Origin: an uncultured Bacteroidales bacterium
GTDB taxonomy: Bacteria; Bacteroidota; Bacteroidia; Bacteroidales; Muribaculaceae
Assembly (NCBI GenBank): GCA_902800715.1
Contig: CADCFN010000006.1
Coordinates: forward strand, 1-64,000
Reading direction: 5' to 3'
DNA: 64,000 bases
The translations under genes were made by a program, and so were the position numbers. Positions 13,703-63,466 of this stretch are shown one piece after another. How positions within the stretch are numbered: position 1 is the first letter of the stretch; each line of letters opens with the position of its first letter. The notes under the pieces are model-generated. The model searched no databases, had not been told where the DNA came from, and saw only the letters and a program-made list of their open reading frames with translations.

Positions 13703-13730
13703 TTAGCTTTTAGCAGTTAGCTTTTAGCGA
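13703..13730 (+). repeat. Heptanucleotide repeat tract between mce and mmdA
   Basis: Four consecutive 7-base units: TTAGCTT, TTAGCAG, TTAGCTT, TTAGCGA, starting directly after the mce stop codon. One of ten period-7 tracts in the window. Confidence 0.8.
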
Positions 13731-13763
13731 TTTTATACCGACTACAAAATCGAAAATTTAAAA

Positions 13764-15377
13764 ATGGGAAAACAACTTGATAAGATTCAAGAGCTGATCG
13801 AGCGTCGCGAGAAAGCACGCTTGGGCGGTGGCGAGAAGGCTATTGCCAAGCAGCACGAGAAGGGCAAATTCACTGCCCGTGAGCGCATCAATATGCTCCT
13901 TGACGAGGGCAGCTTTGAGGAACTGGACATGTTTGTTCAGCACCGCTGCACCAACTTCGGCATGGAAAAGAAGACCTACGACGGCGACGGCGTTGTAACC
14001 GGTTTCGGTACCGTTGGCGGTCGTCTGGTTTATGTCTTTGCTCAGGATGCTACCGTCATTGGCGGTTCACTGGGTGAGACCATGGCACTGAAGATGTGTA
14101 AGGTGATGGACCTCGCTATGAAGCAGGGTGCTCCCGTGGTTGGTCTGAATGACTCGGGCGGTGCCCGCATCCAGGAGAGCGTTAACGCCTTGGCTGGTTA
14201 TGCCGAGATTTTCCAGCGCAACATCAATGCTTCGGGTGTGATTCCTCAAATCAGCGCCATTCTGGGTCCCTGTGCCGGTGGTGCCGTTTACTCCCCTGCC
14301 CTGACTGACTTCATCATCATGGCCAAGGGTATCTCCTTCATGTTCCTGACCGGTCCCAAGGTCGTTAAGACCGTGACTGGCGAGAACGTGACTCAGGAGC
14401 AGCTGGGTGGCGCAGGCGTACACGCCAGCAAGAGTGGTGTGGCTCACTTTGCCGCCGAGACCGAGGAAGAGGCTATCGCCATCATCCGTCAGCTGTTGAG
14501 CTACATGCCCAGCAACAATATGGAAGAGACTCCCCGTGTGGAGTGCACCGACCCCATCGACCGCGTGGAGGATGCCCTGAACAACATCATCCCCGAGAGC
14601 GCCAACGACCCCTACGACATGTATCAGGTCATCAGCGCCATCGTCGACAATGGTGAGTTCCTCGAGGTTCACAAGGACTTCGCCAAGAACATCATCGTGG
14701 GCTTTGCACGCTTCAACGGCCAGGCTGTCGGCGTTGTCGCCAACCAGCCCAACTGCATGGCAGGTGTGCTCGACGTGAACGCCTCGAAGAAGGGCGGCCG
14801 CTTCGTCCGCTTCTGCGATGCCTTCAACATTCCTCTGGTAACCCTCGTTGACGTTCCCGGCTTCCTGCCAGGTACCGGCCAAGAGTACAATGCCGTCATC
14901 ATGAACGGTGCCAAGTTGCTCTATGCCTACGGCGAGGCTACCGTGCCCAAGGTGACCGTTACCCTGCGCAAGAGCTATGGTGGTTCACACATCGTGATGA
15001 GCTGCAAGCAGCTGCGTGGTGACTTGAACTATGCATGGCCCAGCGCCGAAATCGCTGTGATGGGTGCTGCCGGTGCTGCCGAGATTCTGTATGCCAAGGA
15101 CAGCAAGAACTTCAAGACCCAGGCCGAGGAGGCCAAGGCTGCCGGCGACGAAGCCAAAGCCAAGGAACTGCTCGAGGCTGGCAAGAAGTTCATCCAGGAG
15201 AAGGAAGACGAGTACAACAACCTCTTCTGCACGCCTTACAATGCAGCCCGCTATGGCTACATCGATGACGTGATTGAGCCGAGGAACACCCGCTTCCGCG
15301 TAATCCGCGCTCTGGAGGTTTTGCGCACCAAGAAGTTGACCAACCCTGCCAAGAAGCACGGTAATATCCCCCTGTAA
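13764..15377 (+). CDS. mmdA: Methylmalonyl-CoA decarboxylase alpha (carboxyltransferase) subunit / acyl-CoA carboxylase beta
   Basis: 537 aa crotonase-fold carboxyltransferase. Visible are GEKAIAKQHEKGKFTARERI, the oxyanion regions GLNDSGGARIQE and GPCAGGAVYSPALTD, and the C-terminal ending TNPAKKHGNIPL. It transfers the carboxyl of methylmalonyl-CoA to the biotin of the neighbouring BCCP, yielding propionyl-CoA. Compared with the roughly 517-residue Bacteroides protein as I recall it, there is a Lys/Ala/Glu-rich insertion of about 20 residues near 450-475 (TQAEEAKAAGDEAKAKELLE), predicted helical. The operon with OadG-, BCCP- and OadB-type genes shows it works in a Na+-translocating decarboxylase rather than a biosynthetic carboxylase. 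Confidence 0.95.
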   Translation: MGKQLDKIQELIERREKARLGGGEKAIAKQHEKGKFTARERINMLLDEGSFEELDMFVQHRCTNFGMEKKTYDGDGVVTGFGTVGGRLVYVFAQDATVIGGSLGETMALKMCKVMDLAMKQGAPVVGLNDSGGARIQESVNALAGYAEIFQRNINASGVIPQISAILGPCAGGAVYSPALTDFIIMAKGISFMFLTGPKVVKTVTGENVTQEQLGGAGVHASKSGVAHFAAETEEEAIAIIRQLLSYMPSNNMEETPRVECTDPIDRVEDALNNIIPESANDPYDMYQVISAIVDNGEFLEVHKDFAKNIIVGFARFNGQAVGVVANQPNCMAGVLDVNASKKGGRFVRFCDAFNIPLVTLVDVPGFLPGTGQEYNAVIMNGAKLLYAYGEATVPKVTVTLRKSYGGSHIVMSCKQLRGDLNYAWPSAEIAVMGAAGAAEILYAKDSKNFKTQAEEAKAAGDEAKAKELLEAGKKFIQEKEDEYNNLFCTPYNAARYGYIDDVIEPRNTRFRVIRALEVLRTKKLTNPAKKHGNIPL

Positions 15378-15380
15378 ATT

Positions 15381-15463
15381 AGTTTAAAGTTTAATGTTTA
15401 AAGTTTAGAGTTGCTATATCCAACCCAAAACTGACAACTGAAAACTAAGAAACTGGAAACTCA
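15381..15463 (+). repeat. Mirrored heptanucleotide tracts between mmdA and OadG
   Basis: Left arm: AGTTTAA, AGTTTAA, TGTTTAA, AGTTTAG (15381-15408). Right arm: AACTGAC, AACTGAA, AACTAAG, AAACTGG, AAACTCA (15429-15463). Both have period 7, and the right arm is roughly complementary to the left, so the transcript could fold back. Confidence 0.8.
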
Positions 15464-15471
15464 AATTTGTT

Positions 15472-16479
15472 ATGAGTAAAAAAGCATTGACATTATTGCT
15501 GCTGTGTGCCATCCTCGCATTGCCCACGCTGGCCCAAGGCCGTAAGAACGTGCGCATCAACGAGGTAATGGTGCAGCAGGATAGCACGGGCGGCAACGGC
15601 TGGGTCGAGTTCTATAACTCGTCCTACAGCTCCACTGCCGTCGAGCAGATGTTCATCACTACGCTGAGCCGTCAGGATATCCAGAACGTCTTTGACAAGA
15701 ACAAGGGCAACAAGAAAAAGCCCAAACAGATTCTTGTCGAGCTCTGTGAGGCCCAGCCTAATGACATCTACGAGATTCCCCGTGGTGACGAGCGCAACAC
15801 CAAAATCGCGCCCCGCACCCACTTTGTCATGGAAGCTGATGGTGATCCCAAGTCGGGCACCTTCCACATGCCTTTCACCTTCACTCTGGGCAAGGACAAT
15901 TACATCGCCCTCTATGACGTGAATGGTGACCTGGTTGATGACGTGACGATTCCCGCTTCGCTTAAACCAGGCGAGACTTATGCCATCAAGGCTGAAGGCA
16001 GTTTGCCCAGCATATTGGGCGACGGCAAGACCGAATGGATTGTCAAGGACGGCAAGAACATCGAGACTGCCGTCACCAAGGGCAACTACAACATCCGCGA
16101 GGTGAACGAGAACATCGAGGCCTTCCATGAGAAGGACCCTCATGGCTACTGGATTGCACTGCTCGCGATGTCTGTTGTGTTCAGTGCCTTGGCACTGCTC
16201 TACATCTGCTTCAAGCTGTTCGGTAAGTTTGCCAGCCGCAACCTGACCGAGAACAAGCAAACAGAGCAAGCCGCTGCTCCCGCTACCGCCCAAGCCGCCT
16301 CGGTTCCCGCTGGTGGCGACCTTGACGGCGAGAAGATGGCAGCCATCTGTTTTGCCTTGTATCAGCACTTGAATGCCCACGACCAGGAGAGCGGTGTGCT
16401 GACACTCACTCCCCGTGACGGCTCAGCCTGGGCTGGCAAGACCAACCTGATGCGCGAATTACCCGTTATCAAGAAATAA
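15472..16479 (+). CDS. OadG-type (gamma/delta) subunit of the Na+-pumping decarboxylase with an extracytoplasmic lamin-tail-like domain
   Basis: 335 aa. Signal peptide MSKKALTLLLLCAILALPTLAQG. Residues about 25-205 look like a beta-sandwich of the lamin-tail type (VRINEVMVQQDSTGGNGWVEFYN; later DNYIALYDVNGDLVDDVTIP). A transmembrane helix (YWIALLAMSVVFSALALLY, near 223-242) follows, then a cytoplasmic Ala/Pro/Gln-rich linker and a conserved C-terminal patch. Classical OadG proteins are about 80-100 residues and only anchor the alpha subunit and BCCP to OadB. Its position in the operon fixes the role; the large periplasmic domain is the unusual part. Confidence 0.85.
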   Translation: MSKKALTLLLLCAILALPTLAQGRKNVRINEVMVQQDSTGGNGWVEFYNSSYSSTAVEQMFITTLSRQDIQNVFDKNKGNKKKPKQILVELCEAQPNDIYEIPRGDERNTKIAPRTHFVMEADGDPKSGTFHMPFTFTLGKDNYIALYDVNGDLVDDVTIPASLKPGETYAIKAEGSLPSILGDGKTEWIVKDGKNIETAVTKGNYNIREVNENIEAFHEKDPHGYWIALLAMSVVFSALALLYICFKLFGKFASRNLTENKQTEQAAAPATAQAASVPAGGDLDGEKMAAICFALYQHLNAHDQESGVLTLTPRDGSAWAGKTNLMRELPVIKK

Positions 16480-16488
16480 TCACCAATT

Positions 16489-16567
16489 CAGTTGCAGGTT
16501 TTCAGTTACCAGTTTCCAGCGGCATCCGCATTCAACCGAGGACTGAAAACCGAGAACAAAAACTTAA
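16489..16567 (+). repeat. Mirrored heptanucleotide tracts around a GCGGCATCCGC core (OadG-BCCP gap)
   Basis: Left arm: CAGTTGC, AGGTTTT, CAGTTAC, CAGTTTC (16489-16516). Core AGCGGCATCCGCA. Right arm: AACCGAG, GACTGAA, AACCGAG, AACAAAA (16534-16561). The arms are approximately complementary in orientation. Confidence 0.8.
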
Positions 16568-16573
16568 AACAAA

Positions 16574-17008
16574 ATGAAGGAATATAAATATAAGATCAAT
16601 GGCAACGAGTACACTGTTGCTGTCGATAACATTGAGGGCAATATCGCCCACATCCAGTTGAACGGTGTGCCCTATGACGTCGAGCTGCCCGAGCAGCCCA
16701 AGGCCGCTCCCGCCGTTAAGCGCGTCGCTGTGAGCGATGCTCCCGCTGCCGCTCCCAAGCCCGCTGCCCGCAAGGCTGCTCCCGCTGCCGGTGGTGGTCA
16801 TGTCATTGAGTCGCCGCTTCCCGGTGTCATCAAGGACATCTTTGTCAAGGTGGGTCAACAGGTGAAGGCCGATGACGTAGTGTGCATCCTCGAAGCCATG
16901 AAGATGGGCAACGAGATTCACGCTGGCGTTGACGGTACAGTCAAGAGCATCGAGGTATCGAAGGAGGATTCGGTACTCGAGGGTAACACAATCATGGTAA
17001 TTGGCTAA
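16574..17008 (+). CDS. Biotin carboxyl carrier protein of the decarboxylase
   Basis: 144 aa. A short N-terminal domain (YKYKINGNEYTVAVDNIEGN) is followed by an Ala/Pro/Lys-rich hinge (residues about 47-75) and a biotinyl domain with the EAMKMGNE motif, whose lysine near residue 114 carries biotin. It shuttles the carboxyl group from the alpha subunit to the membrane subunit. It is sandwiched between the OadG- and OadB-type genes. Confidence 0.95.
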   Translation: MKEYKYKINGNEYTVAVDNIEGNIAHIQLNGVPYDVELPEQPKAAPAVKRVAVSDAPAAAPKPAARKAAPAAGGGHVIESPLPGVIKDIFVKVGQQVKADDVVCILEAMKMGNEIHAGVDGTVKSIEVSKEDSVLEGNTIMVIG

Positions 17009-17016
17009 TTAAAGTC

Positions 17017-17098
17017 TTCAGTTTTTAGTTTTAAGCTTTCAGCGGCATCCGCATTAAGTTGAAAACTGACAACTGAAAACTGACAACTGAAAACTAAA
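17017..17098 (+). repeat. Mirrored heptanucleotide tracts around GCGGCATCCGC (BCCP-OadB gap)
   Basis: Left arm: TTCAGTT, TTTAGTT, TTAAGCT, TTCAGCG; core GCGGCATCCGC near 17042-17052; right arm: AACTGAC, AACTGAA, AACTGAC, AACTGAA, AACTAAA (17064-17098). It fills the gap up to 5 bases before the next ATG. Confidence 0.85.
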
Positions 17099-17103
17099 AA
17101 GCT

Positions 17104-18258
17104 ATGATACTGCTTGACAATTTCCTGTTTACCAAGCTGTTAGACTTCTGGCATTTTACCGGATTCTACAACTTTGATTGGACTAACCTGATCATGATTC
17201 TGGTGGGTTTGTTCTTCATCTATCTCGCCATTAAGCATGATTTTGAGCCTATGCTGCTCGTGCCCATCGGCTTCGGTATCCTGATTGGTAACATACCTTT
17301 CCAGCCCGGCAACGAGATCGGCATCTATGAGGACGGTTCAGTGCTCAACATCCTATACCAAGGTGTGCGCAACGGCTGGTATCCGCCCCTCATCTTCCTG
17401 GGCATCGGTGCGATGACCGACTTCAGCGCGCTGCTTGCCAATCCCAAGCTGATGCTTGTGGGTGCAGCAGCGCAGTTCGGTATCTTCGGTGCCTACATGA
17501 TTGCCCTGTTCCTGGGCTTCATGCCTGACCAGGCCGGTGCCATCGCCATCATTGGCGGCGCCGACGGTCCCACCGCCATCTTCCTGTCGTCTAAACTGGC
17601 ACCTAACCTGATGGGTGCGATTGCCGTGAGTGCCTATAGTTACATGGCGCTCGTGCCGGTAATCCAGCCACCCATCATGCGCCTGTTGACGACCGAGAAA
17701 GAGCGCAAGATGCGCATGAAACCCGCCCGCAAGGTCAGCCAGCTGGAGAAGATTATCTTCCCCATTTTCGGTCTGTTGCTCACCTGCTTTGTCGTTCCCT
17801 CGGCAATTCCTCTGCTGGGTATGCTGTTCTTCGGCAACCTGCTGCGTGAGAGTGGCGTGACCAAGCGCCTGGCCCACACTGCCAGCAACGCGATGACCGA
17901 CATCGTGACCATTCTGTTGGGTATGACCGTGGGTGCATCGACCCAGGCATCGCAGTTCCTGACCAAGGAGACCATCTTTATCTTCTTCCTTGGTTTCTGC
18001 GCCTTTGTCATCGCTACCTGCTCGGGTGTGCTGTTCGTGAAACTGTTCAACCTTATCCTGCCCAAGAGCAAGAGGTTGAACCCGCTGATTGGCAATGCCG
18101 GTGTATCGGCTGTGCCTATGGCTGCACGCATCAGCAACGACCAGGGCTTGAAGGCCGATCCCAGCAACTACCTGCTCATGCACGCCATGGGTCCCAATGT
18201 GGCCGGCGTGATTGGCTCGGCAGTAGCCGCTGGTGTCCTCCTGGGCTTCCTGGGATAA
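17104..18258 (+). CDS. Sodium ion-translocating decarboxylase beta subunit
   Basis: 384 aa, highly hydrophobic with about nine to eleven membrane segments. Signature stretches: [19 protein letters not shown], with the Asp used in Na+ transport, and [18 protein letters not shown] near the C-terminus. It decarboxylates carboxybiotin and exports Na+. Together with the alpha subunit, OadG and BCCP it couples propionate formation to a sodium gradient. The gene ends at a strong hairpin (18279-18331), the operon terminator. Confidence 0.95.
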
Positions 18259-18278
18259 AGACCATCGGTTAATAGTTA

Positions 18279-18331
18279 AAAGAGAATAGTTAATAGTGGG
18301 CCATGTGCCACAACTATTAACTATTCTCTTT
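18279..18331 (+). terminator. Long hairpin between convergent genes, itself built of heptads
   Basis: A perfect 19-bp stem (18279-18297 with 18313-18331) around a 15-base loop. The stem contains AATAGTT/AATAGTG-type 7-base steps like the repeat tracts. It is symmetric and flanked by T/A-rich DNA on both sides, so it probably terminates both the decarboxylase operon and the convergent gene. Confidence 0.8.
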
Positions 18332-18359
18332 ATTTATCAATCACAATTTGTTGAGTGTA

Positions 18360-19655
18360 CTATGCTATTCTTTTATGGTAAACATACACATCTCCAGGTT
18401 GTGAGCAATCAAATAAAAGTTCTTCTGGCCTATTGAACTGTGTAGAGAGAGCTTTCTGCAATTGTGTTATCTCCTGTTGCGTTTCGGAATAATAACAGCC
18501 TTCACTATCAATAAACAGTTTTTTTATCTCAAAAAATCTTTCTTGAGCGGTGTCGGATTTATATTCCGCATCATTAGCATAACCAGCTAGTGTGGAGATA
18601 AAATAATCTTTTAGCTCTTGGTGTATGCCATGATGGATACGGTTTGCTGATTGAGTGTTATAGCCATTGAACGATAATAATATATCATTCAGCTTATCCA
18701 GAGACAACGAGTCAGTTCCAAGCTTGGATAATAATTTCACATAGATTAATTCTCCGATTTGAGATGCAACACTAATCCCTTGAGCCATATCATTTAGATA
18801 GAAAAAATCACTTCTCCTAAGAATAGAAAGCGCACTAAGTAATTCACCAGCATTCGTCCAATTCTCTGCACCGAGCCATTCCTGCTTAACTTTTTCTGCT
18901 GCCTTTCTCATTTGAATGATATAATTGAAATACATGTCTTGTATATCAATCAATCTCATTCTCAGCAAAATCAAATCATCGATGCTATATGAATTCTGTT
19001 TTGCTAGGATTTGAAAAAATGATATTGCAGATTGAAGTTTTCCTTGATAGGAAGCCTCAATCTTATTGATAATCGTATCAATCTTTTCATTCAATGCATT
19101 CAACTGTTTTGTTATTCCATTCATATAGTATTGACCAGTTACCATAGAGAGGACTTGAAAAACAATAATCGGACTGAAAGTAGTTCCACTTGCCTGTACA
19201 AATCCCCTTTGGGCTACTATTCTTCCACTTTCAGATATCTGCATTGAACTAATTCCACCCGAAGACAAGTGCATCAACTGTGATACGGGTGCCGTTGCTT
19301 GATACAACCCATTCAAACCGTTTTGAATAAGCATACCTTGAGTGCCTAGCGCCATTCCTGATGAAACCACATCATATAAACCTCTACGCTCATTTTTAGT
19401 CATCGGGATACACTCATATCCTTCTGGTATGTCGATTGTTTGCAATCTATCAAAAACAAGTGGAGCTGCAGAATTGCTTGCAGGGTTCAGAGTGAATTGG
19501 GTAATTTCAGGAATGGGCAGTTGCGAATTATAAGTTGCGCAACATTCACTTTCATCGCTAACGGATTCTGATTCAATCATATCCTGCTCGATGAATTCTT
19601 CTGATTCTTGCTTGAAAAAGCCAAAATAATTTAAAATCCTTTTTAAAATATTCAT
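18360..19655 (-). CDS. Protein of unknown function with a central hydrophobic segment; AT-rich accessory gene
   Basis: 431 aa, not recognised with certainty. It has an acidic N-terminus (residues about 15-38), a Gly/Ser/Met-rich region with GMALGTQGMLIQNGLNGLY and RIVAQRGFVQA, a hydrophobic stretch (SPIIVFQVLSMVTGQYYMNG, near 162-181), then NGITKQLNALNEKIDTIINK, a coiled-coil-like start to a mostly helical C-terminal half. The order of a pore-like hydrophobic piece plus 'KQLNALNEKID' recalls uncharacterised proteins of Firmicutes and Bacteroidetes accessory regions, from memory only. Base composition is far more AT-rich than in the neighbours, and AT-rich non-coding DNA follows upstream: signs of horizontal origin. 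No signal peptide. Confidence 0.75.
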   Translation of the reverse strand: MNILKRILNYFGFFKQESEEFIEQDMIESESVSDESECCATYNSQLPIPEITQFTLNPASNSAAPLVFDRLQTIDIPEGYECIPMTKNERRGLYDVVSSGMALGTQGMLIQNGLNGLYQATAPVSQLMHLSSGGISSMQISESGRIVAQRGFVQASGTTFSPIIVFQVLSMVTGQYYMNGITKQLNALNEKIDTIINKIEASYQGKLQSAISFFQILAKQNSYSIDDLILLRMRLIDIQDMYFNYIIQMRKAAEKVKQEWLGAENWTNAGELLSALSILRRSDFFYLNDMAQGISVASQIGELIYVKLLSKLGTDSLSLDKLNDILLSFNGYNTQSANRIHHGIHQELKDYFISTLAGYANDAEYKSDTAQERFFEIKKLFIDSEGCYYSETQQEITQLQKALSTQFNRPEELLFDCSQPGDVYVYHKRIA

Positions 19656-19886
19656 ATTAAAAAAATGATAAAAAATTAGTTAAACGTATTCAAACAACAT
19701 AGAGCATAGTTCGCAGCTTTTTCTATCATATCAAATTGTTTTTTTTAATAATAGCAGGGCAACTGGCTGTTATTATGATACTTATGATATCCCTATCTTT
19801 AATAACATTACCAACAGTAAGTTTTTCCAAACAACTTAATAATAGAGTTAGATACCTACGATAACATCAATGAAAGTATTGTTGTG
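19656..19886. other. AT-rich intergenic stretch without recognised genes
   Basis: About 230 bases of AT-rich DNA between the unknown gene and the smpB terminator. No open frame with coding character, tRNA-like fold or clear promoter was found. Confidence 0.5.
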
Positions 19887-19928: not shown

Positions 19929-19984
19929 ATATAATTACTATTGAATTCTATGATCAGAACCTAATAGATATGGTATGGATGAGG

Positions 19985-37306: not shown

Positions 37307-37334
37307 TTTCCAGTAGCCGGTTTTCTGTTTTCAG
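37307..37334 (+). repeat. Heptanucleotide repeat tract upstream of the TPR gene promoter
   Basis: TTTCCAG, TAGCCGG, TTTTCTG, TTTTCAG: four 7-base steps, directly beyond the sigma-54 -24 element. Confidence 0.6.
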
Positions 37335-39082: not shown

Positions 39083-39085
39083 GTC

Positions 39086-39134
39086 TAGTTTCTGGTCCCT
39101 AGTTTCTAGTTTCTGGTCCCTAGTCCCTAGTTTA
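39086..39134 (+). repeat. Heptanucleotide repeat tract, seven units
   Basis: TAGTTTC, TGGTCCC, TAGTTTC, TAGTTTC, TGGTCCC, TAGTCCC, TAGTTTA with no phase breaks: the cleanest period-7 array of the window, between the small-RNA terminator and the proS terminator. Confidence 0.9.
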
Positions 39135-41389: not shown

Positions 41390-41926
41390 TTATCCGTTCA
41401 GGTCCAACAGACCTTTTGGCAGGTCCATGACCATGAGTTTCTTGTCCAAATCAAATTCCACAATCAAGTCATCGCTGGCTGGTACCATGATTTCCTCATC
41501 GTCGCGAGAGATGATAAAAATCGCATTCTCGGTCTGCTCATCGACCTCGGTGATGGTTCCTATCCTAGTGCCGTCACTGTCCTGGAGGTCAAAACCGATG
41601 AAGAAGTCCAGTGGATAGCCGTCGGCATCGGCATCCTCGGTTTCCTGCTGAAATTCACGCTTGAGCGCAAAGATGTCACGGTTGACCAGTCGCGAGACTT
41701 CCTTCTCGCTGTTGAAGCCGTCGATGGTCAACAGAAACGTCTCACTGGATTTTGGGCGGCACGAATTGACGTAGAATGGCACGAAGATGCCGTCCATGTC
41801 GCTCACTAGACAGGACAACTGCTGTAAGACCTCCAAATCCACATCGATAGTTGCCGATATTTCTCCGGCAACGCCGTGTGGCTTGTTGTAGTGCCCTATA
41901 GCTATGAGTTCTTCGCGCTTGATCAT
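41390..41926 (-). CDS. rimM: Ribosome maturation factor RimM
   Basis: 178 aa. N-terminal RimM domain (IAIGHYNKPHGVAGEISATI) and a C-terminal PRC barrel ending HELIVEFDLDKK-like (DLIVEFDLDKKLMVMDLPKG). It assists 16S rRNA processing and 30S head assembly. In Bacteroides, as I recall, murA lies between DUF4290 and rimM; here the DUF4290 gene is only 36 bases away. Confidence 0.93.
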   Translation of the reverse strand: MIKREELIAIGHYNKPHGVAGEISATIDVDLEVLQQLSCLVSDMDGIFVPFYVNSCRPKSSETFLLTIDGFNSEKEVSRLVNRDIFALKREFQQETEDADADGYPLDFFIGFDLQDSDGTRIGTITEVDEQTENAIFIISRDDEEIMVPASDDLIVEFDLDKKLMVMDLPKGLLDLNG

Positions 41927-41960
41927 TTTTAGTTTTCTGTTGTCAGAACTTAGACTAAAG
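41926..41960 (+). repeat. Heptanucleotide tract in the rimM-DUF4290 gap
   Basis: TTTTTAG, TTTTCTG, TTGTCAG then AACTTAG, ACTAAAG: five 7-base steps with mirrored arms, filling almost the whole gap (it touches the rimM start at its first base). Confidence 0.6.
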
Positions 41961-43453: not shown

Positions 43454-45451
43454 TTACAAGGCAAGCCTCAGGCCCAAGTGGACTCCCGTCTCATTCAAGG
43501 CGCCATACACGCGGGATGAATTGCGGCACTGGTCAGCCGGAGTGTACCAGCTGCCACTGCGAATCACCTTATCGGTGCCTGTTGCCGGACCTTGCGGGTT
43601 TGTCTGTGCTTCAGCCGAATAATCACCGTAAAAGTCGGCACACCACTCGTAGTTGTTGCCGCACATATCGTAAATGCCCAACTCGTTGGGCAGCTTCTGT
43701 GCCACACGGCGACCATAAGAATAGCAGGCATTATCAAAATACCAGGCGACGGCATCGATATCGTCACTGCCGGCATAGATGTACCCCCGGCTCATGTTTC
43801 CGCCACGGGCGGCAAACTCCCATTCAGCCTCTGTGGGCAAACGGAACGAAAGACCTGTCATAGCATTCAACTTGGTGATGAAGGTCATGCAGTCATTCCA
43901 GCTCACGTTGCTCACAGGCAACTCGACGCCACGCACACTGCTGGGATTGGTGCCCATCACGGCTTTCCAAAGGCCTTGGGTCACTTCGGTCTTGCCGATA
44001 TAATATGAGGACAATGTGACGCGATGCACGGGGAACTCGTTGGAATAGGCTCCATCGGCTTGCTCATCGGTGGCGCCCATGTCAAATGAGCCACCATCCA
44101 CCTTGACCATCCTGAATGTCACGTCGCCCACGGTAAACGTCTCGCCTCCGGTATCCTCTTGCCCGGCACCAGACAGCAGCAGGTCGACCATACTGCTGAC
44201 GTCAGCGATATCTGTCATGCCGTCATTGTTCACGTCACCGATGCGTCCACTGGGAGAGCCCGCGAGCAACAGGTCAATCAGATTGCTGAGATCCGAAATA
44301 TCGATGGCATTGTCGCCATTCACATCAGTGTAGTCACGGTCCAAACCCAGAATCGCATATTGACGCGTCGAGTAATTATTGCCGTTGGGGGTCAACGCCG
44401 ACAATTGCCAATAGGTATCATTACTACCACCCCACCCCCAATTGATATGGAACATGGAGTTACGGTACCCGTCGAGTACAAACGCATGGCCAGCACTGTT
44501 ACCATCAGAGCCCATATAGATGACAGGGCGACCTGCCGCCAGTTCATCATACATCATCTGGTCCCAATCGGCATCATTAGACGTATCGCGCATGTAGGTC
44601 ATCGCCGAATTGCTGTAACCGAAGTAATAGTTCATGGCAAAGGGTATCACCTGGAATGTGGCATTGCTGACCTGTGTGCCGTAGTCCATTTCTACCGATT
44701 GACCGCAATAGCGCATCAGCTGTGCCACGGCATAGGCCTGGTCTGCCGTATAGCTGTAATATCGTGGTAACATCTTGTCCCAATCAAACGTCACAGGAGG
44801 CAAGGCGGGCAGATTGATGCCTTTTTTTGATGTGTAGGCTGGTATGCCTCGGCACTCTTCTTGCGGAAAGCGATGATAATACATCACCTGTGCCATGGCG
44901 GTCGCTACACATCCCGTGAAGGTCGGGTAATTGCCCACCTTGGGACATTGGCCATTGTAGGGCTGCTCCTGATCCCAAGCCGTCGTGAGCATCGGGGTGA
45001 TTTCGCTTAAAGGAGCATCGCGACGGGGCGCTTCAGCAGTGCCTTTGATAGCGGGATTAGCCTGCAGGTATTCAATCTGTGAGCTGTAACCATCGAGCCA
45101 CGAATGCATATTACAAGGCATGGCATTGATGTCAAAGCTGCCGCTCTCGCTGTAACCGAGCACCTGAACGGCGCGGTCATCGGCAGATACCATCACCCAT
45201 CCGCCATGGTTTTCATCAGCGAACACATAATAGACAGGCTTGTCCTGCTGCGCTGACAAGAAACGCGTGTGCGACAACGTCAGGTCGGTAGCAGCACCAT
45301 TATTTATTCTTTTTCCATCGTGACGGTTTGACAGAAATTCACTCGCGATGACACGGGCCTGGTCGGCATCAATGACATCGGCTTGCACGTTTAATGCGCC
45401 GCAGATAGCCAATACAACCACTGCGGACAGAATTATCAGATTTTTCTGCAT
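43454..45451 (-). CDS. Secreted C10 (streptopain-like) cysteine protease fused to dockerin repeats and an FGE/sulfatase-modifying-like domain
   Basis: 665 aa. Signal peptide MQKNLIILSAVVVLAICGALNVQA. Spi-like propeptide (about 25-130: YYVFADENHGGWVMVSADDR). C10 catalytic domain: Cys in FTGCVATAMAQVMYYHRF (near 180), His in SAGHAFVLDGY (near 322) and the Trp loop HINWGWGGSND. Next, two calcium-loop repeats (TDVNGDNAIDISDLSNLI and GDVNNDGMTDIADVSSMV, near 380-430). Finally an FGE/SUMF1-like domain (MVKVDGGSFDMGATDEQAD; LPVSNVSWNDCMTFI; FRLPTEAEWEFAARGG; GSWYTPADQCRNSSR) from about 445 to the end. The FGE-like half probably serves as binding or structural module rather than a sulfatase activator; that is inference. 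Confidence 0.92.
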   Translation of the reverse strand: MQKNLIILSAVVVLAICGALNVQADVIDADQARVIASEFLSNRHDGKRINNGAATDLTLSHTRFLSAQQDKPVYYVFADENHGGWVMVSADDRAVQVLGYSESGSFDINAMPCNMHSWLDGYSSQIEYLQANPAIKGTAEAPRRDAPLSEITPMLTTAWDQEQPYNGQCPKVGNYPTFTGCVATAMAQVMYYHRFPQEECRGIPAYTSKKGINLPALPPVTFDWDKMLPRYYSYTADQAYAVAQLMRYCGQSVEMDYGTQVSNATFQVIPFAMNYYFGYSNSAMTYMRDTSNDADWDQMMYDELAAGRPVIYMGSDGNSAGHAFVLDGYRNSMFHINWGWGGSNDTYWQLSALTPNGNNYSTRQYAILGLDRDYTDVNGDNAIDISDLSNLIDLLLAGSPSGRIGDVNNDGMTDIADVSSMVDLLLSGAGQEDTGGETFTVGDVTFRMVKVDGGSFDMGATDEQADGAYSNEFPVHRVTLSSYYIGKTEVTQGLWKAVMGTNPSSVRGVELPVSNVSWNDCMTFITKLNAMTGLSFRLPTEAEWEFAARGGNMSRGYIYAGSDDIDAVAWYFDNACYSYGRRVAQKLPNELGIYDMCGNNYEWCADFYGDYSAEAQTNPQGPATGTDKVIRSGSWYTPADQCRNSSRVYGALNETGVHLGLRLAL

Positions 45452-45456: not shown

Positions 45457-45533
45457 GTTTTAAGTTTATAGTTTTTGGTATTCAGTTTTCAGTTTTCAGC
45501 GGCATCCGCAAACGCTGACAACTGGCAACTCCA
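45457..45533 (+). repeat. Mirrored heptanucleotide tract around GCGGCATCCGC
   Basis: Eleven consecutive 7-base steps in one phase: GTTTTAA, GTTTATA, GTTTTTG, GTATTCA, GTTTTCA, GTTTTCA, GCGGCAT, CCGCAAA, CGCTGAC, AACTGGC, AACTCCA. It fills the gap between the threonine aldolase stop and the C10-protease start. Confidence 0.9.
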
Positions 45534-56272: not shown

Positions 56273-58825
56273 TTAGAACCACTTGAGATAGGCGAAGTCC
56301 TGACGGTGAGGCAGGTTGTCGTTCCAGGGGAATGCACGGTAGGCATAGCGGAAGATACCATTCTCACGGAAGGGAACTTTGCAGTTGTAAGTCAAGATGT
56401 TGCCGTCCTCGGCGATGACATCGAACAAGGCCTTGCGGTAGAACTTGGTCTGGCCGTCTTCCTCCTTGTAAACCACGAGTTCGAGCTTGATGTCACGTCC
56501 CAAACCGGCAGTGTCAAGACGCATGGTGACATTGATGTCCTCTACACCGAGAGAGATGGCGTCACGGTTGCCCATGATTTCGCCCACGAGGTGTACATCA
56601 TCCCAACGATTAGCGACATTCTCCTTCCAAGCCACGATTTCGCGGGCAAGAGCATAATTCTTGGCCATAAGGCGATGGGCACGCTCAGCCTGGGGACGAT
56701 AGAACTTGACAAAGTAGTCCTTCATCATGCGTGACATGGTGTAGTTGGGAGCGATGTGTACCATCGAGTTCTTGATGTACTGTACCCACTCGGGGGAATA
56801 GCCCTTGCTGTTCTTGGCGAAATACAGGGGGATAATCTCGTTCTCGAGCATCGAGTAGATGGTTGCCGAGTCGAGTTTATCCTGCTGGGACTGCTCGGTG
56901 TAAGTGCGCTTGCTGGTCAGAGCCCAGCCAGCACCCTCGCGGTAACCCTCATACCACCAGCCGTCGAGCACCGAGAAGTTGAGCAGACCGTTCATCTCGG
57001 CCTTCTCTCCCGATGTACCCGAAGCCTCCAGAGGACGCGTGGGGGTATTCAGCCACACGTCAACACCCGTGATGAGGCGCTTGGAAAGCGTCATGTCGTA
57101 GTTCTCGAGGAAGATGATCTTACCCAGGAACTCGGGCATCTTGCTGATTTCGATGATGCGCTTAATCAGGCCCTGACCGGCACCATCGGCGGGATGTGCC
57201 TTACCAGCGAAAATGAACTGAACGGGGAATTTCTCGTTGTTGACAATCTTCTTGAGACGCTCCAGGTCGTTGAAGATGAGGTGGGCACGCTTATAGGTGG
57301 CAAAACGACGGGCAAAACCGATGAGCAGCGCGTCGGGGTTGATTTTGTCCACGATATTGGCAATGCGGGTGGGATCGCCCTGGTTCTTGAGCCAGTTCTC
57401 CTTGAAGTCACGCTTAACGAAGCGGATGAACTTCTGCTTCAAAGTCATGCGCATCTCCCAAATCTTCTCATCAGGCACATTCATCAAGGGCGTCCAAGCC
57501 GATTCCAGTTCCTGGTGCTCCAGGAAATCATCGCCCAGCACCTTGTTGTAGAAGACTTTCCACTCACTGGCAGCCCAAGTGGGCATGTGAACGCCATTGG
57601 TAACAAAGCCCACATGTGACTCCTCGGGGGCATAGCCCTTCCAAATTCCAGCAAACATCTTCTTGGACACCTCGCCATGCAGCCAGCTAACGCCGTTGCT
57701 CTCCTGGGTGGTGTTCAAGGCGAAGGTACTCATGCAGAAGCGCTCATCGCTACCGGGGTTCTCGCGGCCCATGTCCATCAGTTCCTGCCAGGAGATGCCC
57801 AGACGTGAGGGGTATTCGCCCATGTATTTGCCGAAGAGTTCCTCGTCAAAATAGTCGTGGCCAGCAGGCACGGGGGTGTGAACGGTGTAGAGCGAGGTAG
57901 CACGGACAATTTCCATTGCCTCGTTAAACGACAAGCCATCACCCTGCACATAGTCCACGAGACGCTGCAGGTTGAGCAGCGCTGCGTGACCCTCGTTGCA
58001 GTGATAGATGTCGGCCTTGATGCCGAGTCGCTTGAGCAGCAGCACGCCGCCGATACCCAGCAGGTATTCCTGCTTGATACGGTTCTCCCAGTCGCCACCA
58101 TAGAGCTTGTGGGTAATCTCGCGGTCATAGTCGCTGTTCTGGTCGATATCGGTGTCGAGCAGATAGAGTTTGACACGGCCCACGTTGGCCTGCCATACAT
58201 TGACATAAATCGTGCGACCGGGATAAGGCACCTCATGCACCAGCTGATGGCCGTTCTCGTCAAGAACAGGCTCGATAGGCAGCTGGTTGAAGTTCTGGGC
58301 CTCGTAGTTGGCAATCTGCTGACCGTCCATCGAGAGGGTCTGGGTAAAGTATCCGTAACGATAGAGGAAGCCCACGGCGGTCATGTTGACGCAGCGGTCA
58401 CTAGCCTCCTTGACATAGTCGCCGGCGAGGATACCCAAGCCACCCGAATAAATCTTGAGGGCGTTGCACAGGCCATATTCCATACAGAAGTAGGCTACCG
58501 AAGGCAGGTCTTTGCGCAACGGCTTCTTCATGTATTCCTTGTAGAGTTCGTAGGTGCTGTCGATGCGTGCCATCATGGCAGAGTCGGCCTGAATGGCGTC
58601 AATTTTCTCGTTGGAAAGACGCTGCAGCATCTTCACGGGGTTCTCACTGGTAGCGCGCCAGGTGTCACGGTCCAGGTCATGGAAAAGGGTCTTGCCCTCG
58701 GTGTTCCAAGCCCACCACAGGTTGCGTGACAGTTCATTGAGTTTCTGGAGTTTACCAGGTAATTCAGACTTCACAGTGATGTTTCTCCACTGCGGGTCAT
58801 TGCTATTACTTACTTGAAATTTCAT
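56273..58825 (-). CDS. glgP: Alpha-glucan (glycogen) phosphorylase, GT35
   Basis: 850 aa. Phosphorolyses alpha-1,4-glucan to glucose-1-phosphate in the cytoplasm. N-terminal DUF3417-type start ([20 protein letters not shown]), active-site glycine loop [14 protein letters not shown], catalytic-region [12 protein letters not shown], and the PLP-lysine region [17 protein letters not shown] (near 600-610). It belongs to the 'short' DUF3417 group rather than the E. coli GlgP type. It lies 32 bases downstream of the glycogen synthase gene, so synthesis and breakdown enzymes are probably co-transcribed. Confidence 0.94.
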
Positions 58826-58857
58826 AATTGTATTTTGTAGTTATGATGTTTTGTTTG

Positions 58858-60510
58858 TTACTCTTTTTTCATGCGTTGAGCAGCCTTATCGAGGGCATGG
58901 TTGTAAGCCTCGTCATAGCTGGCGATGAAGTTGTCCCACGAAGCGGCCTTGCTGGTCGTGCGGTTGGCATTGCGAATGGCGCGGTTGTCCTTGTCGCTCA
59001 TCACATACAGGTTCATCATGCTCATCGCGATGGCCCTGAAGGTCTCATCGTAGTTGCTATCGGTGCGGTGGAGCACCTTCACGCCGTAACGGTCGGAGTC
59101 ATCACCAAAACGGTCAAGCACCCACTGGCCAAAGCCAGCCAGGTCGGTTGTGATGGTGGGAACGCCAAAAGCGGCACTCTCGAGCGGGGTGTAACCCCAT
59201 GGCTCATAGTAGGACGGGAACACAGCGGCATCGAGGCCTGCCAGCAGGTCATAATAGGACATATTGAAGATGCCGTCGTTTCCGTTCAGGTAGCAAGGCA
59301 CGTCAATGACGGTCACCTTGTCCTGAGGCTCATTGTGGAAGCCCAGCGCATTGATGCGGTTATAGATGGGATCAGTATCCTGATTGTGGAGGTGATGGGT
59401 GATTACCGGGTCGAACAGGCGGTGAGGCTTGTCGGCATGGAGATTCTCCATCAGGTCGGCACGGGGCGACTTCATCCAGGCGGGCACAAGCACCAGTGCA
59501 ACCACCTTGCGGTCCATGCTCGACACAAATCGCAGGGAATTACGCAACGCCGAAACGGCATCCAGATAGACATCGATGCCCTTGTTACGCATCTCCAGTC
59601 GGCCCGAGGTGGCGACAATCAGCGTGTCGTTGTCATAACTTTGTCCTGTGAGGCAGGATGCCACCTGCAACATGCGCTGGCGGGCAGCGTTTCGCTTGGC
59701 GGTGAACTTGGCACCCTTGGGGACGTAGTTCTGTTCAAAGCCGTTGGGCGTTACCATGGGAAAACGCTCCAGCAGCTGGCTGCATTCGCGCGCCGTGACA
59801 TCACTGACGGTGGTGAAGGCATCGGCAGCATGGGCTGCAGCCTTCTCCAGCGAGTGTTTGGATTGCATATTAAGTTCGGCTGCCATCTGGTCGCCGTTAT
59901 AACCCTGCATGAAATCATACAGAGGCTTGCCATTGCCGCAGATGCTGCGACCGATGCTTGTGGCATGGGTAGTGAAAACCGTTGCCACCTGGGGCAGGTG
60001 CGACTTGACATAGAGCAGTCCCATGCCCGTCGTCCACTCGTCAAAATGGGCAACCACCCTCAACTTGGGGTTGTTTTTCCATTTGACGATACTCTCAATG
60101 ACCAGGGCTGCGGCATAGGCGAACATACACGACTCGTCATAATCCCCATAGCCGTGAAGGGAATCCACGCGGTAGCGCTCCCACATCTCGGCATACAGGG
60201 CGTTCTTGTAGGTGTAGAGCGACCCAAAGGTCACAAGCAGCGCAATGGGCTTGCCGGGGATATCCCAGCGCCCTACCCTCACCCGCATTCCTTCGGGCAG
60301 CTTAGCCTTGCGAAGCCATGCGGTAAGCGGGGTACGTGTCTCGACAAAAGTCGGGGACAGATTATCTTCGGTCCAGATATCCGGGCCGATGAAAATCAGA
60401 TTGTCTTTATATCGCTGATGGAGTGTCTTGGCCTTGGTCGACAGCACGGCATAAATGCCACCGACCTTATTGCACACCTCCCAACTGGTTTCAAACAGTA
60501 AGTCCAACAT
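58858..60510 (-). CDS. Glycogen synthase, GT3-like
   Basis: 550 aa. The start LFETSWEVCNKVGGIYAVLS, the region HFDEWTTGMGLLYVKSHLP, and the C-terminal catalytic stretch FPSYYEPWGYTPLESAAFGV (E-x7-E motif) are those of eukaryote-type (GT3) glycogen synthases found in Bacteroidetes. It transfers glucose from UDP- (or ADP-) glucose to the glycogen chain. Followed by glgP. A TACCTTTG -7 box lies at 60543-60550 on the minus strand, 33 bases before the ATG. Confidence 0.92.
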   Translation of the reverse strand: MLDLLFETSWEVCNKVGGIYAVLSTKAKTLHQRYKDNLIFIGPDIWTEDNLSPTFVETRTPLTAWLRKAKLPEGMRVRVGRWDIPGKPIALLVTFGSLYTYKNALYAEMWERYRVDSLHGYGDYDESCMFAYAAALVIESIVKWKNNPKLRVVAHFDEWTTGMGLLYVKSHLPQVATVFTTHATSIGRSICGNGKPLYDFMQGYNGDQMAAELNMQSKHSLEKAAAHAADAFTTVSDVTARECSQLLERFPMVTPNGFEQNYVPKGAKFTAKRNAARQRMLQVASCLTGQSYDNDTLIVATSGRLEMRNKGIDVYLDAVSALRNSLRFVSSMDRKVVALVLVPAWMKSPRADLMENLHADKPHRLFDPVITHHLHNQDTDPIYNRINALGFHNEPQDKVTVIDVPCYLNGNDGIFNMSYYDLLAGLDAAVFPSYYEPWGYTPLESAAFGVPTITTDLAGFGQWVLDRFGDDSDRYGVKVLHRTDSNYDETFRAIAMSMMNLYVMSDKDNRAIRNANRTTSKAASWDNFIASYDEAYNHALDKAAQRMKKE

Positions 60511-60785
60511 TACTTAGCAGTTAAATATTGAAAATTTGGGCACAAAGGTACAAAAAAATCCTCAAAATTACTGACTTTTAATACAATAATCATACTACAC
60601 TCATGAATTACAAAAGATAACATGTTGATAATCAGTAAATTACTTGGAGCGTTGTTTTTGTTTAAAAAATTTCGGTTATCATCTGATTTTCAAGTATATA
60701 TAATTTATGTAATCGTTTTCTTGCAATAATAGCCCCATCAGCACGCTCCAAATGCATGCCGACATAGGAAAAAGGGAAATCCCCA
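60511..60785. other. Gap between the glycogen genes and dnaK
   Basis: Contains the -7 box of the glycogen synthase gene (60543-60550, minus strand) and otherwise AT-rich DNA without a recognisable gene. Confidence 0.45.
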
Positions 60786-60822
60786 AAAAAAGTGGCGCGA
60801 AGCGATGATTGCTTCGCGCCAC
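60786..60822 (-). terminator. dnaK terminator
   Basis: Perfect 12-bp stem GTGGCGCGAAGC/GCTTCGCGCCAC with a 7-base loop, followed on the minus strand by a run of seven T, 35 bases beyond the dnaK stop. Confidence 0.9.
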
Positions 60823-60856
60823 GAGTAATTAACTCTACTATTATGAATACATGTTT

Positions 60857-62782
60857 TTACTTCACTTCCTCGTAGGGGGTGTCCTCGACGTTGTCGCCGC
60901 CTTGGCTCTGGTTGCCGCCCTGCTGGGGACCGCCCTGGAAGCCGCCCATGTTATTGGGGTCGAAACCTGCACCGGGCTGGCCCTGTGCGCCACCAGCCTG
61001 CTGATACATCTTCTCGAAGAGTGAGTTCAGTTCAGCGGTTGCTGTGTCGATGGCAGCGAGGTCTTGGCTCTTGTGGGCATCCTTCAGTTTGCCCAGGGCG
61101 CCTTCAATCTGGCTCTTGATGTCGGCGGGCAACTTGTCGCCACTGTCCTTGAGCACCTTCTCGGTTTGGAAGATGAGGGCGTCGGCACCGTTAATCTTGT
61201 CGATGCGCTGCTTCTCGGCAGCATCGGCGGCAGCGTTGGCCTCGGCCTCGTCCTTCATGCGCTGGATTTCGGCGTCGCTCAAGCCGCTGGAAGCCTCGAT
61301 GCGGATGCTCTGCTCCTTGCCGGTAGCCTTGTCCTTGGCGCTCACGTTCATGATACCGTTGGCATCGACCTCAAAGGTCACCTCAATCTGAGGAATGCCA
61401 CGGGGAGCGGGAGCGATGCCATCCAAGTGGAAGCGACCGAGGGTCTTGCAGTCCTTAGCCATGGGACGCTCACCCTGCAGCACGTGGATTTCCACCTCGG
61501 GCTGGTTGTCGGCAGCGGTCGAGAAGACCTGGCTGCGACGGGCAGGAATCGTGGTGTTGGCCTCGATGAGCTTGGTCATCACGCCACCCAGCGTCTCGAT
61601 GCCCACGCTCAGGGGCACTACGTCGAGCAGCAGCACGTCCTTGACATCACCGGTGAGCACACCGCCCTGGATTGCGGCACCCACAGCGACTACCTCGTCG
61701 GGGTTAACGCCCTTAGACGGAGCCTTGCCGAAGAATTTCTCGACAATCTGCTGTACGGCGGGGATACGGGTCGAGCCGCCCACGAGGATAACCTCGTTGA
61801 TGTCGCTGGTGCTCAGGCCGGCATCGGCAAGCGCCTTGCGGCAGGGCTCGATGGTGCTCTGAATCAGGTCATCGCACAACTGCTCAAACTTGGCACGTGA
61901 CAAGGTCTTTACCAGGTGCTTGGGCATACCGTCAAGCTGGGTGATATAGGGCAGGTTGATTTCGGTGCTGGTCGAGCTGGAGAGCTCAATCTTGGCCTTC
62001 TCGGCAGCCTCTTTCAGGCGCTGCAGAGCCATGGGGTCCTTGCGCAGGTCCATGTTGTTTTCCTGCTGGAATTCGTCGGCAAGCCAGGTAATGATGCGCT
62101 GGTCGAAGTCGTCACCACCCAGATGGGTGTCACCATTGGTGGACTTCACCTCGAACACGCCGTCGCCGAGTTCAAGAATCGAAATATCAAATGTACCGCC
62201 ACCCAGGTCAAACACGGCAATGCGCTTGTCGCTGTTGTCCTTGTCCAGGCCGTATGCCAGAGCGGCAGCGGTGGGCTCGTTGACGATGCGCTGCACCTTG
62301 AGTCCGGCGATTTCACCGGCTTCCTTGGTGGCCTTACGCTGAGCGTCGTTGAAGTAGGCAGGCACGGTGATGACGGCCTCGTCAACGGTGGTGCCCAGGT
62401 AATCCTCGGCGGTCTTCTTCATCTTCTGGAGAATCATTGCCGAAATCTCTTGCGGGGTGTACTGACGGCCTGCAATCTCCACGCGGGGCTGGTTGCTGCC
62501 ATTGTTCACCACCTTGTAGGGCATGCGCTCCACATCCTTCAGGACGTGGTCATACTGCTCGCCCATGAAACGCTTAATAGAAAATACGGTACCCGTGGGG
62601 TTCATGATGGCCTGACGCTTAGCGGGATCGCCCACGATGCGCTCACCACCATCCTTGAATGCAACTACCGAAGGCGTAGTGTTGCGGCCTTCGCTGTTGG
62701 GAATCACAACAGGCTTGGAGCCTTCAAGAACCGAAACACACGAGTTGGTTGTTCCTAAATCGATACCAATAATCTTACCCAT
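60857..62782 (-). CDS. dnaK: Chaperone protein DnaK (Hsp70)
   Basis: 641 aa, full length. Nucleotide-binding domain with [61 protein letters not shown]; linker [19 protein letters not shown]; substrate-binding domain with [16 protein letters not shown]; a Gly/Gln-rich tail ([17 protein letters not shown]) ending EEVK. No grpE or dnaJ lies beside it. Upstream is a sigma-54-type promoter with a palindromic site rather than a CIRCE element. Confidence 0.98.
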
Positions 62783-62843
62783 AATAAAATCTCTCTTTCT
62801 TTTGTTTTTATGTTTTTTATTTGTTAATTATCACTGATTGCGA

Positions 62844-62867
62844 GGCGACCTGAATACACAGGTCACC
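62844..62867 (-). promoter_or_regulatory. Hairpin at the 5' end of the dnaK leader
   Basis: GG(C)GACCTG with CAGGTC(A)CC, a 6-base loop, beginning at the predicted transcription start (near 62868). Possible mRNA stabiliser or temperature-sensitive structure. Confidence 0.4.
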
Positions 62868-62878
62868 GCCCACATTCT

Positions 62879-62895
62879 TGCAAACCATGTGCCAA
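62879..62895 (-). promoter_or_regulatory. Sigma-54-type promoter of dnaK
   Basis: Minus strand TTGGCACATGGTTTGCA: TGGCAC-N5-TTGC, all -24/-12 consensus bases present, 97 bases before the dnaK ATG, in a gene-free region. Confidence 0.7.
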
Positions 62896-62904
62896 AAGCG
62901 ACAG

Positions 62905-62921
62905 GCTGACACATTGTCAGC
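62905..62921. promoter_or_regulatory. Palindromic upstream site of dnaK
   Basis: GCTGACA-CAT-TGTCAGC, perfect 7-bp arms, ten bases upstream of the -24 element; a further half-site CTGACA follows at about 62926-62931 and a weaker GCGACAGG precedes it. It looks like an activator or repressor binding site. Confidence 0.6.
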
Positions 62922-63023
62922 AAAACTGACACTCAAAGGCCCGCAGCGCCCGCAAATCAGACAATATGTTTCCAGTGATTCGCGGGCGGACGGATGAAAC
63001 GGGATTGCACGTGCATATATCAA

Positions 63024-63104
63024 AAAAGGAAAACAATAAATACCATAAGTACAATTATTTGATGCAGATGCCATTGTCTTTATTGTGCTTATTGTTTTCC
63101 TTTT
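63024..63104. repeat. 16-bp inverted repeat with 49-base spacer
   Basis: AAAAGGAAAACAATAA (63024-63039) and its exact complement TTATTGTTTTCCTTTT (63089-63104). It could be a terminator for the minus-strand remnant beside it. The right arm region (63074-63099) is in turn similar, in inverse orientation, to 63368-63394. Confidence 0.6.
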
Positions 63105-63110
63105 AGATAA

Positions 63111-63197
63111 TTACCAACTGCCGTTAAGCAGGTAGTCGATCAGGGCGGTGACGTCGCTGATGCTCATATCGTTGATGACGATTACGTCGCCACACAG
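63111..63197 (-). pseudogene. Decayed copy of the dockerin-like C-terminus
   Basis: Minus strand: CGDV...MSISDVTALIDYLLNGSW followed by TAA. It is nearly identical to the end of the BspA-like gene 350 bases away (SISDVTALIDYLL; VLIDYLLNGSWN). Upstream coding sequence is gone, replaced by an AT-rich inverted-repeat element, so only about 25 codons survive. Confidence 0.65.
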
Positions 63198-63199
63198 GG

Positions 63200-63300
63200 T
63201 GGCCGCAAGCGGCCAAAAATCAAAACAAATCTTTAACAAATCATGACAAATTAAGAAAATGTGATTTGTTTGAATTTGTGAACGATTTGTTATGATTTTT
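63200..63300. repeat. AT-rich imperfect inverted-repeat element
   Basis: GGCCGCAAGCGGCC hairpin followed by two mirrored arms built from ACAAAT units: left 63215-63252 (AAAACAAATC, TAACAAATCA, GACAAAT), right 63261-63299 (GATTTGTTTG, AATTTGTGAA, GATTTGTTATG). The reverse complement of the right arm closely follows the left. Confidence 0.6.
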
Positions 63301-63431
63301 CCGAGCGTAGCGAGGACCCATCCACGACAGGACGTGTACACGAACATCTCCACAACTCTTTCAAAATGAAGACAATAAGGACAATAAAGACAACAGCATC
63401 CGCACTCCAAAAATGACAGGATGCGGATGCC

Positions 63432-63466
63432 AATTCCTAATTCCTAACTTCTAATTCCTAATTCCA
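63432..63466 (+). repeat. Heptanucleotide tract after the BspA-like gene
   Basis: AATTCCT, AATTCCT, AACTTCT, AATTCCT, AATTCCA; the last unit runs into the stop codon of the minus-strand gene. Confidence 0.8.

Follow-up and report, generated by a model that had tools for sequence, protein, structure and literature searches.

Heptad tracts between genes of a Bacteroidales genome as probable arms of dispersed extragenic palindromes

Runs of seven-base units lie in the intergenic gaps of a 64,000-nucleotide stretch from an uncultured Bacteroidales bacterium of the Muribaculaceae (contig CADCFN010000006.1, positions 1 to 64,000; here called the window). Our data indicate that these tracts probably belong to short extragenic palindromes (~60-120 bp) dispersed in the genome, either as paired arms or as a single arm left over. 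Many of the tracts consist of two facing arrays, with TYAGNNN heptads on the left and reverse-complement heptads on the right, and often with a GC-rich core (GCGGCATCCGC) between them. A first-pass annotation had named ten tracts and had described them as heptads in uninterrupted phase, different in consensus at each site, not copies of one element and made or maintained by a process that works in heptads. Its observation was partly confirmed and its interpretation is partly supported.

Period and anatomy of the tracts

We scanned 464 kb of the own genome (G000), comprising the window, C1:1-200000 and C2:180001-380000 with 261 gaps of at least 20 nt, and compared it with loci of relatives; counts across the genus refer to 81 genomes (own genome included), several of which are incomplete. 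Gap borders in the window follow the longest open reading frame (ORF) calls, which missed a + strand ORF ending at 13702, upstream of the tract at 13703. At all ten named tracts lag 7 was the best among lags 4-11, strongly so at eight of them and marginally at 37307 and 41926. Against dinucleotide shuffles, p was 0.0005 at 15381, 17017, 39086, 45457 and 63432, 0.0015 at 16489, 0.0035 at 18279 and 0.005 at 13703; all of these are single tests, and the values for 37307-37334 (0.024) and 41926-41960 (0.042) would be lost under correction for ten. Tandem Repeats Finder (TRF) gave a period-7 row at 8/10 sites, and none at 37307 and 41926. In the 464 kb we found 28 strong period-7 segments (score ≥14) in 22 of the 261 gaps and none in five shuffles, while the same scan returned one gap at lag 5, none at lags 6 and 8 and five at lag 9; with a looser score, 32 gaps contain a period-7 segment. 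The autocorrelation that had been suggested as a check gave a divided answer: intergenic lag 7 (0.2924) exceeds lags 5, 6 and 8 (0.2675, 0.2793 and 0.2785) and coding sequence has no peak at lag 7, but lag 9 reaches the same value (0.2923), so that plain autocorrelation is a weak test here.

The uninterrupted phase that had been stated was not confirmed, since the tracts at 15381, 16489, 17017, 18279 and 45457 are two opposed arms around a loop. Left units are for example TCAGTTT, TCAGTTG, CTAGTTT, TTAGAGT, ATAGTTA or TTAGCTT, and right units are the reverse complements. The anchored consensus is T68 Y78 A82 G73 (%), followed by three looser bases, in a composition that holds 2% N. Adjacent units of the own arrays agree in 555 of 654 comparisons at positions 1-6 and in 62 of 109 at position 7, so variation is uneven across the unit; in both analyses the phase anchoring favours TYAG. 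The units thus do differ between sites, as the first-pass annotation had it, but they have the TYAGNNN skeleton in common, and the core GGCATCCGC occurs at four of the ten sites (16489, 17017, 45457 and 63432), and the claim that the sites are not copies of one element was not confirmed.

Among 99 period-7 gaps (from the window, 400 kb of the own genome and 80 loci of relatives) the arms stand in left-right order in 20 and in right-left order in none; of the remaining arm calls, 39 are left alone, 37 right alone and three doubled. A run of N (L088) is counted among the gaps at each lag tested. The 20 left-right gaps, 11 own and nine in relatives, include orthologous copies among congeners and one pair ~600 nt apart. 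Left arrays have a median gap position of 0.26 and right arrays of 0.74 in the own genome (p = 1e-5), and of 0.22 and 0.75 in the relatives (p = 1e-9). In co-directional gaps (n = 19) the median distance is 3 nt from the called stop codon to the first heptad and 5 nt from the last heptad to the called start codon. Arms of mixed type occur within one element at 15378 in the window, C1:62836, C1:101966, C1:119703 and three C2 sites. Among eight folded elements, z lies between -2.6 and -6.1 in seven and is -1.0 in the eighth; the mosaic element at C1:101966 folds into five-base rungs with two-by-two loops each seven bases.

As a separate observation, a TGCGAGC...GCGAGCA-like motif lies 3' of several CTCTAAA-type right arms (G000:C2:267154-267295 and neighbouring gaps).

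A core shared by dispersed copies

The core CAGCGGCATCCGC has 15 exact copies in the own genome, compared with one for the reversed control, and by eye heptad arms lie beside or around 14 of the 15, leaving one without. The core GGCATCCGC or a one-off form of it was found in 6 of 25 period-7 gaps and in 1 of 233 others. Across the genus, the 13-mer core is present at 7-30 copies in eight of the 81 genomes (G000 15, G009 30, G061 14, G052 11, G036 9, G032 8, G080 8, G033 7) and at 0-4 copies in the other 73, like the reversed control. We examined 25 core contexts from the low group, of which 24 are coding-looking and without heptad arms and one (G054) has arms. At each of L019, L028 and L040, family B occupies two gaps of one and the same genome. 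The enrichment in period-7 gaps, the amplification in some genomes and the left-right order together speak against unrelated sites without an underlying element, as the tracts had been described.

Change between relatives

The close congener G036 is collinear with parts of the own genome at ~90%; for 137 of the 275 own gaps that measure at least 10 nt, the stretches compared contain an orthologous one. Indels of at least 4 nt, taken from gap pairs of up to 450 nt aligned at ≥75% identity (longer and poorer pairs excluded), are multiples of seven in 11 of 16 cases inside the arms and in 11 of 117 outside. Seven of the arm indels in multiples of seven measure 7 nt, three 14 and one 21. This length change by whole units between close relatives, as in a slippage microsatellite, argues for slippage by heptad steps, and in this respect the proposal of a heptad-making process is borne out.

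Heptad steps would also be left by independent replication slippage at unrelated seeds, where the length of DNA in contact with the polymerase would favour seven (Mrazek 2007, as reported in PMC4679880 and PMC4692102). It fits this explanation that the majority of arrays are one-armed and that heptamers are described as the commonest intergenic tandem repeats across a wide range of prokaryotes (PMC6344855). However, a common core and skeleton, the left-right order and the rise of one core to high copy number in part of the genus stand against it, as do two findings on other periods and viral contigs given below, and we regard independent slippage as an unlikely origin of the tracts.

Family turnover was seen at the gap ahead of the oxaloacetate decarboxylase (OAD) beta gene (S17). 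In 28 genomes, including the window, this gap is empty in ten, holds family A in six, family B in six, family C in four and others in two. Family changes on the gene tree number 16, against a mean of 15.8 for shuffled labels, and two further sites also lie near their shuffled values (S15, 5 vs 5.6; S16, 7 vs 7.8). An amplified core in a minority of the genomes, together with S17 families that turn over like shuffled labels, points to dispersal or exchange.

In the mechanism that we favour, a full element comprises a left TYAGNNN arm, a small core and a right reverse-complement arm, seated a few bases from the flanking stop and start codons. This structure, the order of the arms within the genus, the common core, the length changes by heptad steps and the family turnover at S17 are shown here. 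Elements would spread via a trans-acting or recombinational process, after which the seated arms would lengthen or shorten by whole units through slipped-strand or hairpin replication. As growth and shrinkage proceed by whole units, the period would be passed on even as the unit itself drifts, chiefly at the spacer positions. Arms may also be exchanged between elements via the common word, and selection against stop-bearing insertions would keep the elements outside genes.

Several observations weigh against dispersed palindromes. One arm alone is present in 76 of the 99 period-7 gaps, and where the own genome has a single array, a left one falls into the left half in only 6 of 10 gaps and a right one into the right half in 3 of 4. 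Arm pairing was no better within than between elements, neither in the ten close two-arm elements of the own genome (0.417 within vs 0.432 between, p = 0.56) nor in all 19 (p = 0.11), and element-specific arm pairing in the own genome was therefore dropped. As a group, 24 period-7 gaps showed no folding advantage over 113 other gaps (p = 0.34). In the comparison with G036, an array was called in both genomes in 13 of the 21 orthologous gaps that have one in either, and a clean insertion was not recognisable by eye in any of the 21. Filled and empty sites are too diverged for the ends of an element to be defined, and at filled sites the native spacer appears by eye mostly replaced rather than split. 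The site S13 tracks the tree, with 5 changes vs 9.2 shuffled, in a scoring by length only with one row (L039) mis-mapped. Neither a target duplication nor, in enzyme searches confined to Y1_Tnp and RVT_1, a transposase was found. Finally, the CTRA arm comes first in the period-8 pairs read in the genus g7 and in a period-7 element of another genome (L205), so that the left-right order of the present genus is not universal.

Spread in the genus, the phylum and viral contigs

The spread of the arrays was followed with a pattern of three TYAGNNN and a terminal TYAG, and with the reversed pattern as control; the counts score overlapping placements, and one long array is therefore counted several times. 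The own genome has 263 matches and no reversed match. In the genus, 67 of the 81 genomes have matches, in a range of 0-681, and the 14 genomes with zero include G060, a single 3.3-Mb contig. In the phylum, matches occur in 166 of 296 genomes, where the reversed control also matches in many genomes because other heptads exist. In 100-kb samples, period-7 arrays were found in 7/63 (G302), 8/71 (G250), 5/63 (G282) and 2/52 gaps (G259), with 1.3, 0, 0 and 0 in shuffles, and period-8 arrays in 3, 3, 2 and 0 gaps of the same samples, with 1.0, 0.3, 0.7 and 0 in shuffles; 20 kb sampled from G372 contain neither in 11 gaps.

The period-8 arrays of the genus g7 and of G258 (L189-L202) consist of CTYAG followed by three free bases, and several have an inverted partner array within ~150 bases, at loci that were chosen from pattern listings, many because of opposite-strand neighbours. 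In the g7 arrays the C before TYAG is kept, with a search pattern that fixes TYAG only, while three spacer bases vary, which goes beyond slippage alone. Arrays of period 9, built on the word CTAG, are present in the own genome (C1:62866 and C1:82347) and at L054:10560 and L086:1710, and the one at C1:62866 sits between two heptad arms in one gap.

In viral contigs (IMG/VR), TCAGTTN in four copies was found in at least 120 stretches, whereas the reversed heptad gave 18 and a permuted one 24, again in conflict with independent slippage; with its units spaced at 8 or 6 bases as controls, TCAGTTN gave 14 and 53 stretches, respectively. Among 80 of these at least 120 stretches (L229-L308; 90 arrays), an inverted array lies downstream in six cases, two of them near-identical, and upstream in none. 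These few viral copies have the same left-right arms and unrelated cores. A 47-base array query against plasmid and phage records returned no match, in a search where the low-complexity filter may mask such queries.

Binding words and enzymes

Alternatively, the arrays may consist of words recognised by a protein that binds RNA or DNA and has a regulatory or architectural role, in which case the word would be selected and the spacing would fit the protein. Such a function was proposed for TAACTGA repeats by MacGregor 2015 (PMC4679880), and the conserved word with its variable last base, the period-8 arrays that keep the word and a free spacer, and the closeness of the arrays to gene borders are in line with it. 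Nevertheless, the wide range of pattern matches within one genus, down to zero in the 14 genomes mentioned, is unlike a conserved regulon, and array-bearing gaps (co-directional 19/174, divergent 4/43, convergent 2/41) show no clear excess of any gap type. The paper on RbpB, in the part accessible, gives a 41-nt motif and no heptad (PMC11697453). We therefore consider binding words very unlikely as the explanation of the tracts.

It is highly improbable that the units are written by a telomerase-like reverse transcriptase or mobilised by a Y1 transposase of the REP-associated (RAYT) type: unit types recur across sites and in both arms, and the Y1 count is weakly correlated with arrays over the genus genomes (rho 0.33, p 0.003, which may only reflect genome completeness), but a Y1 match (74 of 81 genomes) is present in 12 of 14 array-free genomes and missing in 2 of 29 array-rich ones (≥100 pattern matches), and RVT_1 is missing in 19 of these 29 (rho -0.12, p 0.29), with both tests limited by genes missing from incomplete genomes. 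Writing by an RVT_1 reverse transcriptase is thereby largely refuted for this genus, and both enzymes were rejected as candidates. We found no evidence for the site-specific polymerase or the protein filament that the first-pass annotation had considered, and no enzyme could be tied to the arrays in the Y1_Tnp and RVT_1 searches of the 81 genomes.

The one Y1-type gene of the own genome that was examined encodes a 338-aa Y1/HUH-type transposase (G000:C5:74914-75162, L117) and is flanked by GC-rich CCGTGGC...GCCACGG palindromes rather than by heptads. A cluster of CCGTGGC-like palindromes also lies at G000:C3:135042 (L118). The gene looks like a RAYT with REPs of its own, apart from the heptads.

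Relation to known repeats

Cyanobacteria carry heptanucleotide repeats known as short tandemly repeated repetitive (STRR) sequences, and repetitive extragenic palindromic (REP) sequences and REPINs with their RAYTs are small dispersed extragenic palindromes, amplified in some lineages; Paludibacter, to which we return below, is a genus of the Bacteroidales. The present tracts resemble STRR sequences in their exact seven-base tandem units, intergenic and dispersed in the genome, and in forming several families that differ by unit sequence. With REPs and REPINs they have in common that they are extragenic, palindromic and present in many copies, whereas the palindromes around the Y1-type gene here are of another kind, and heptad arms are to our knowledge not a REP feature. 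Compared with miniature inverted-repeat transposable elements, the arms are inverted, the ends are ill-defined and no target duplication is recognisable by eye.

In Nostoc PCC 7120, csR1.1 (ttgtcagttgtcagttgtca, 44 copies; PMC2408588, Table 3) has the same period and the identical unit TCAGTTG, and is likewise intergenic and dispersed. It belongs to another phylum, however, and the accessible part of that paper lists no hairpin for csR1 in its table and describes no inverted second arm or core. The degenerate heptads in P6b of the Nostoc tRNA-Leu intron pair in a hairpin and account for most length differences by their copy number, but at a single intron locus rather than dispersed between genes (PMC3488679). 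The GGGNATC heptads of Xanthomonas and Nostoc are intergenic, vary extensively in length between relatives and include some inverted repeats, yet their unit is another one, G-rich and quadruplex-forming (PMC4692102). TAACTGA direct repeats are reported from Beggiatoaceae, Cyanobacteria and five Bacteroidetes, among them Paludibacter propionicigenes with two sets (MacGregor 2015, PMC4679880), and the statement of the first-pass annotation that no heptads were described for Bacteroidales does not hold. Read on the opposite strand, TAACTGA is TCAGTTA, which is among the units present here; its repeats are intergenic, often near start codons and patchy. In contrast to our elements, they are direct repeats of a single heptamer (169 sets in one genome, plus one indirect repeat), with no two-arm element or core described in the text available (PMC4679880). 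RepRanger reports two Flavobacterium genomes rich in REP-like palindromes (PMC12306157), and heptads are not mentioned in the accessible portion of PMC8040213. In searches of one open-access library, with most subscription journals outside its scope, we found neither two-armed heptad palindromes in Bacteroidota nor a description of arm order, family turnover and heptad-step change of two-arm core elements. Heptads as such are thus already known, and their palindromic anatomy and dynamics seem new.

A heptad with a free seventh base recurs, as far as the cited sources report, in Nostoc (TCAGTTG) and Beggiatoaceae (TCAGTTA), besides the Bacteroidales genus and the viral contigs. It is conceivable, if doubtful, that TCAGTTN/NAACTGA palindromes form one cross-phylum class of minimal mobile elements, whose arms would be word-and-spacer arrays read by a common machine and whose variants would include the period-8 and period-9 dialects, some of them reverse-ordered. 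A period of seven bases has been reported for many bacteria, with no known role, and the elements described here give it a concrete structure. If many heptad tracts are arms of dispersed palindromes that change in heptad steps, one can search for second arms, cores and recent insertions as well as for the enzyme, and genomes with zero and with several hundred pattern matches in one genus offer a ready comparison for the responsible gene.

Sites in the window

All features of the window are given on the + strand. The richest case is a gene row at 13265-18258, with arrays or elements in all four of its gaps, which codes for glyoxalase/epimerase-like, carboxyltransferase, OAD gamma-like, biotin carrier and OAD beta proteins (Pfam) and is presumably one operon. 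The glyoxalase/epimerase-like gene (13265-13702) is followed, directly after its stop codon, by a one-armed left-type array of TTAGCTT/TTAGCAG units (13703-13730), and a congener (L045) has, by eye, a like array that is longer by one heptad. Between the carboxyltransferase and OAD gamma-like genes, a left arm of AGTTTAA units (15381-15412) is partnered by a right arm of AACTGAC/AACTGAA units (15422-15461); the two arm types differ in this mosaic element, and its RNA fold (z -1.0) is not notable. The other two elements of the row are two-armed with the core CAGCGGCATCCGC, one at 16489-16567 (core 16517-16529, fold z -4.1) and one of family A at 17013-17100 (core 17040-17052, z -4.5). A heptad palindrome of GTTAATA and AACTATT units follows at 18268-18331 between convergent genes; it has a long-stem fold (z -6.1) and may double as a two-way terminator.

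Further along, a weak left-type array of four degenerate units (37307-37334, p 0.024) and a marginal array (41926-41960, p 0.042) are the two sites lacking a TRF row. The left array of CTAGTTT/CTGGTCC units at 39084-39133 has a TRF row and a fold z of -3.9, mostly due to a separate stem-loop 3' of it, after which right-type CCTAAAG units continue to ~39207. At 45457-45530 lies another two-arm element of family A (core CAGCGGCATCCGC at 45497-45509, z -2.6), which has one extra heptad in G036. The last site, 63423-63465, starts with the core GCGGATGCC (63423-63431), followed by a one-armed right-type array of CTAATTC units (63432-63465). An Rfam scan of the window gave nothing at gathering score. 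Among the neighbouring genes, the ORF at 43454-45451 fuses a Spi inhibitor, a C10 peptidase and a formylglycine-generating-enzyme-like domain (Pfam).

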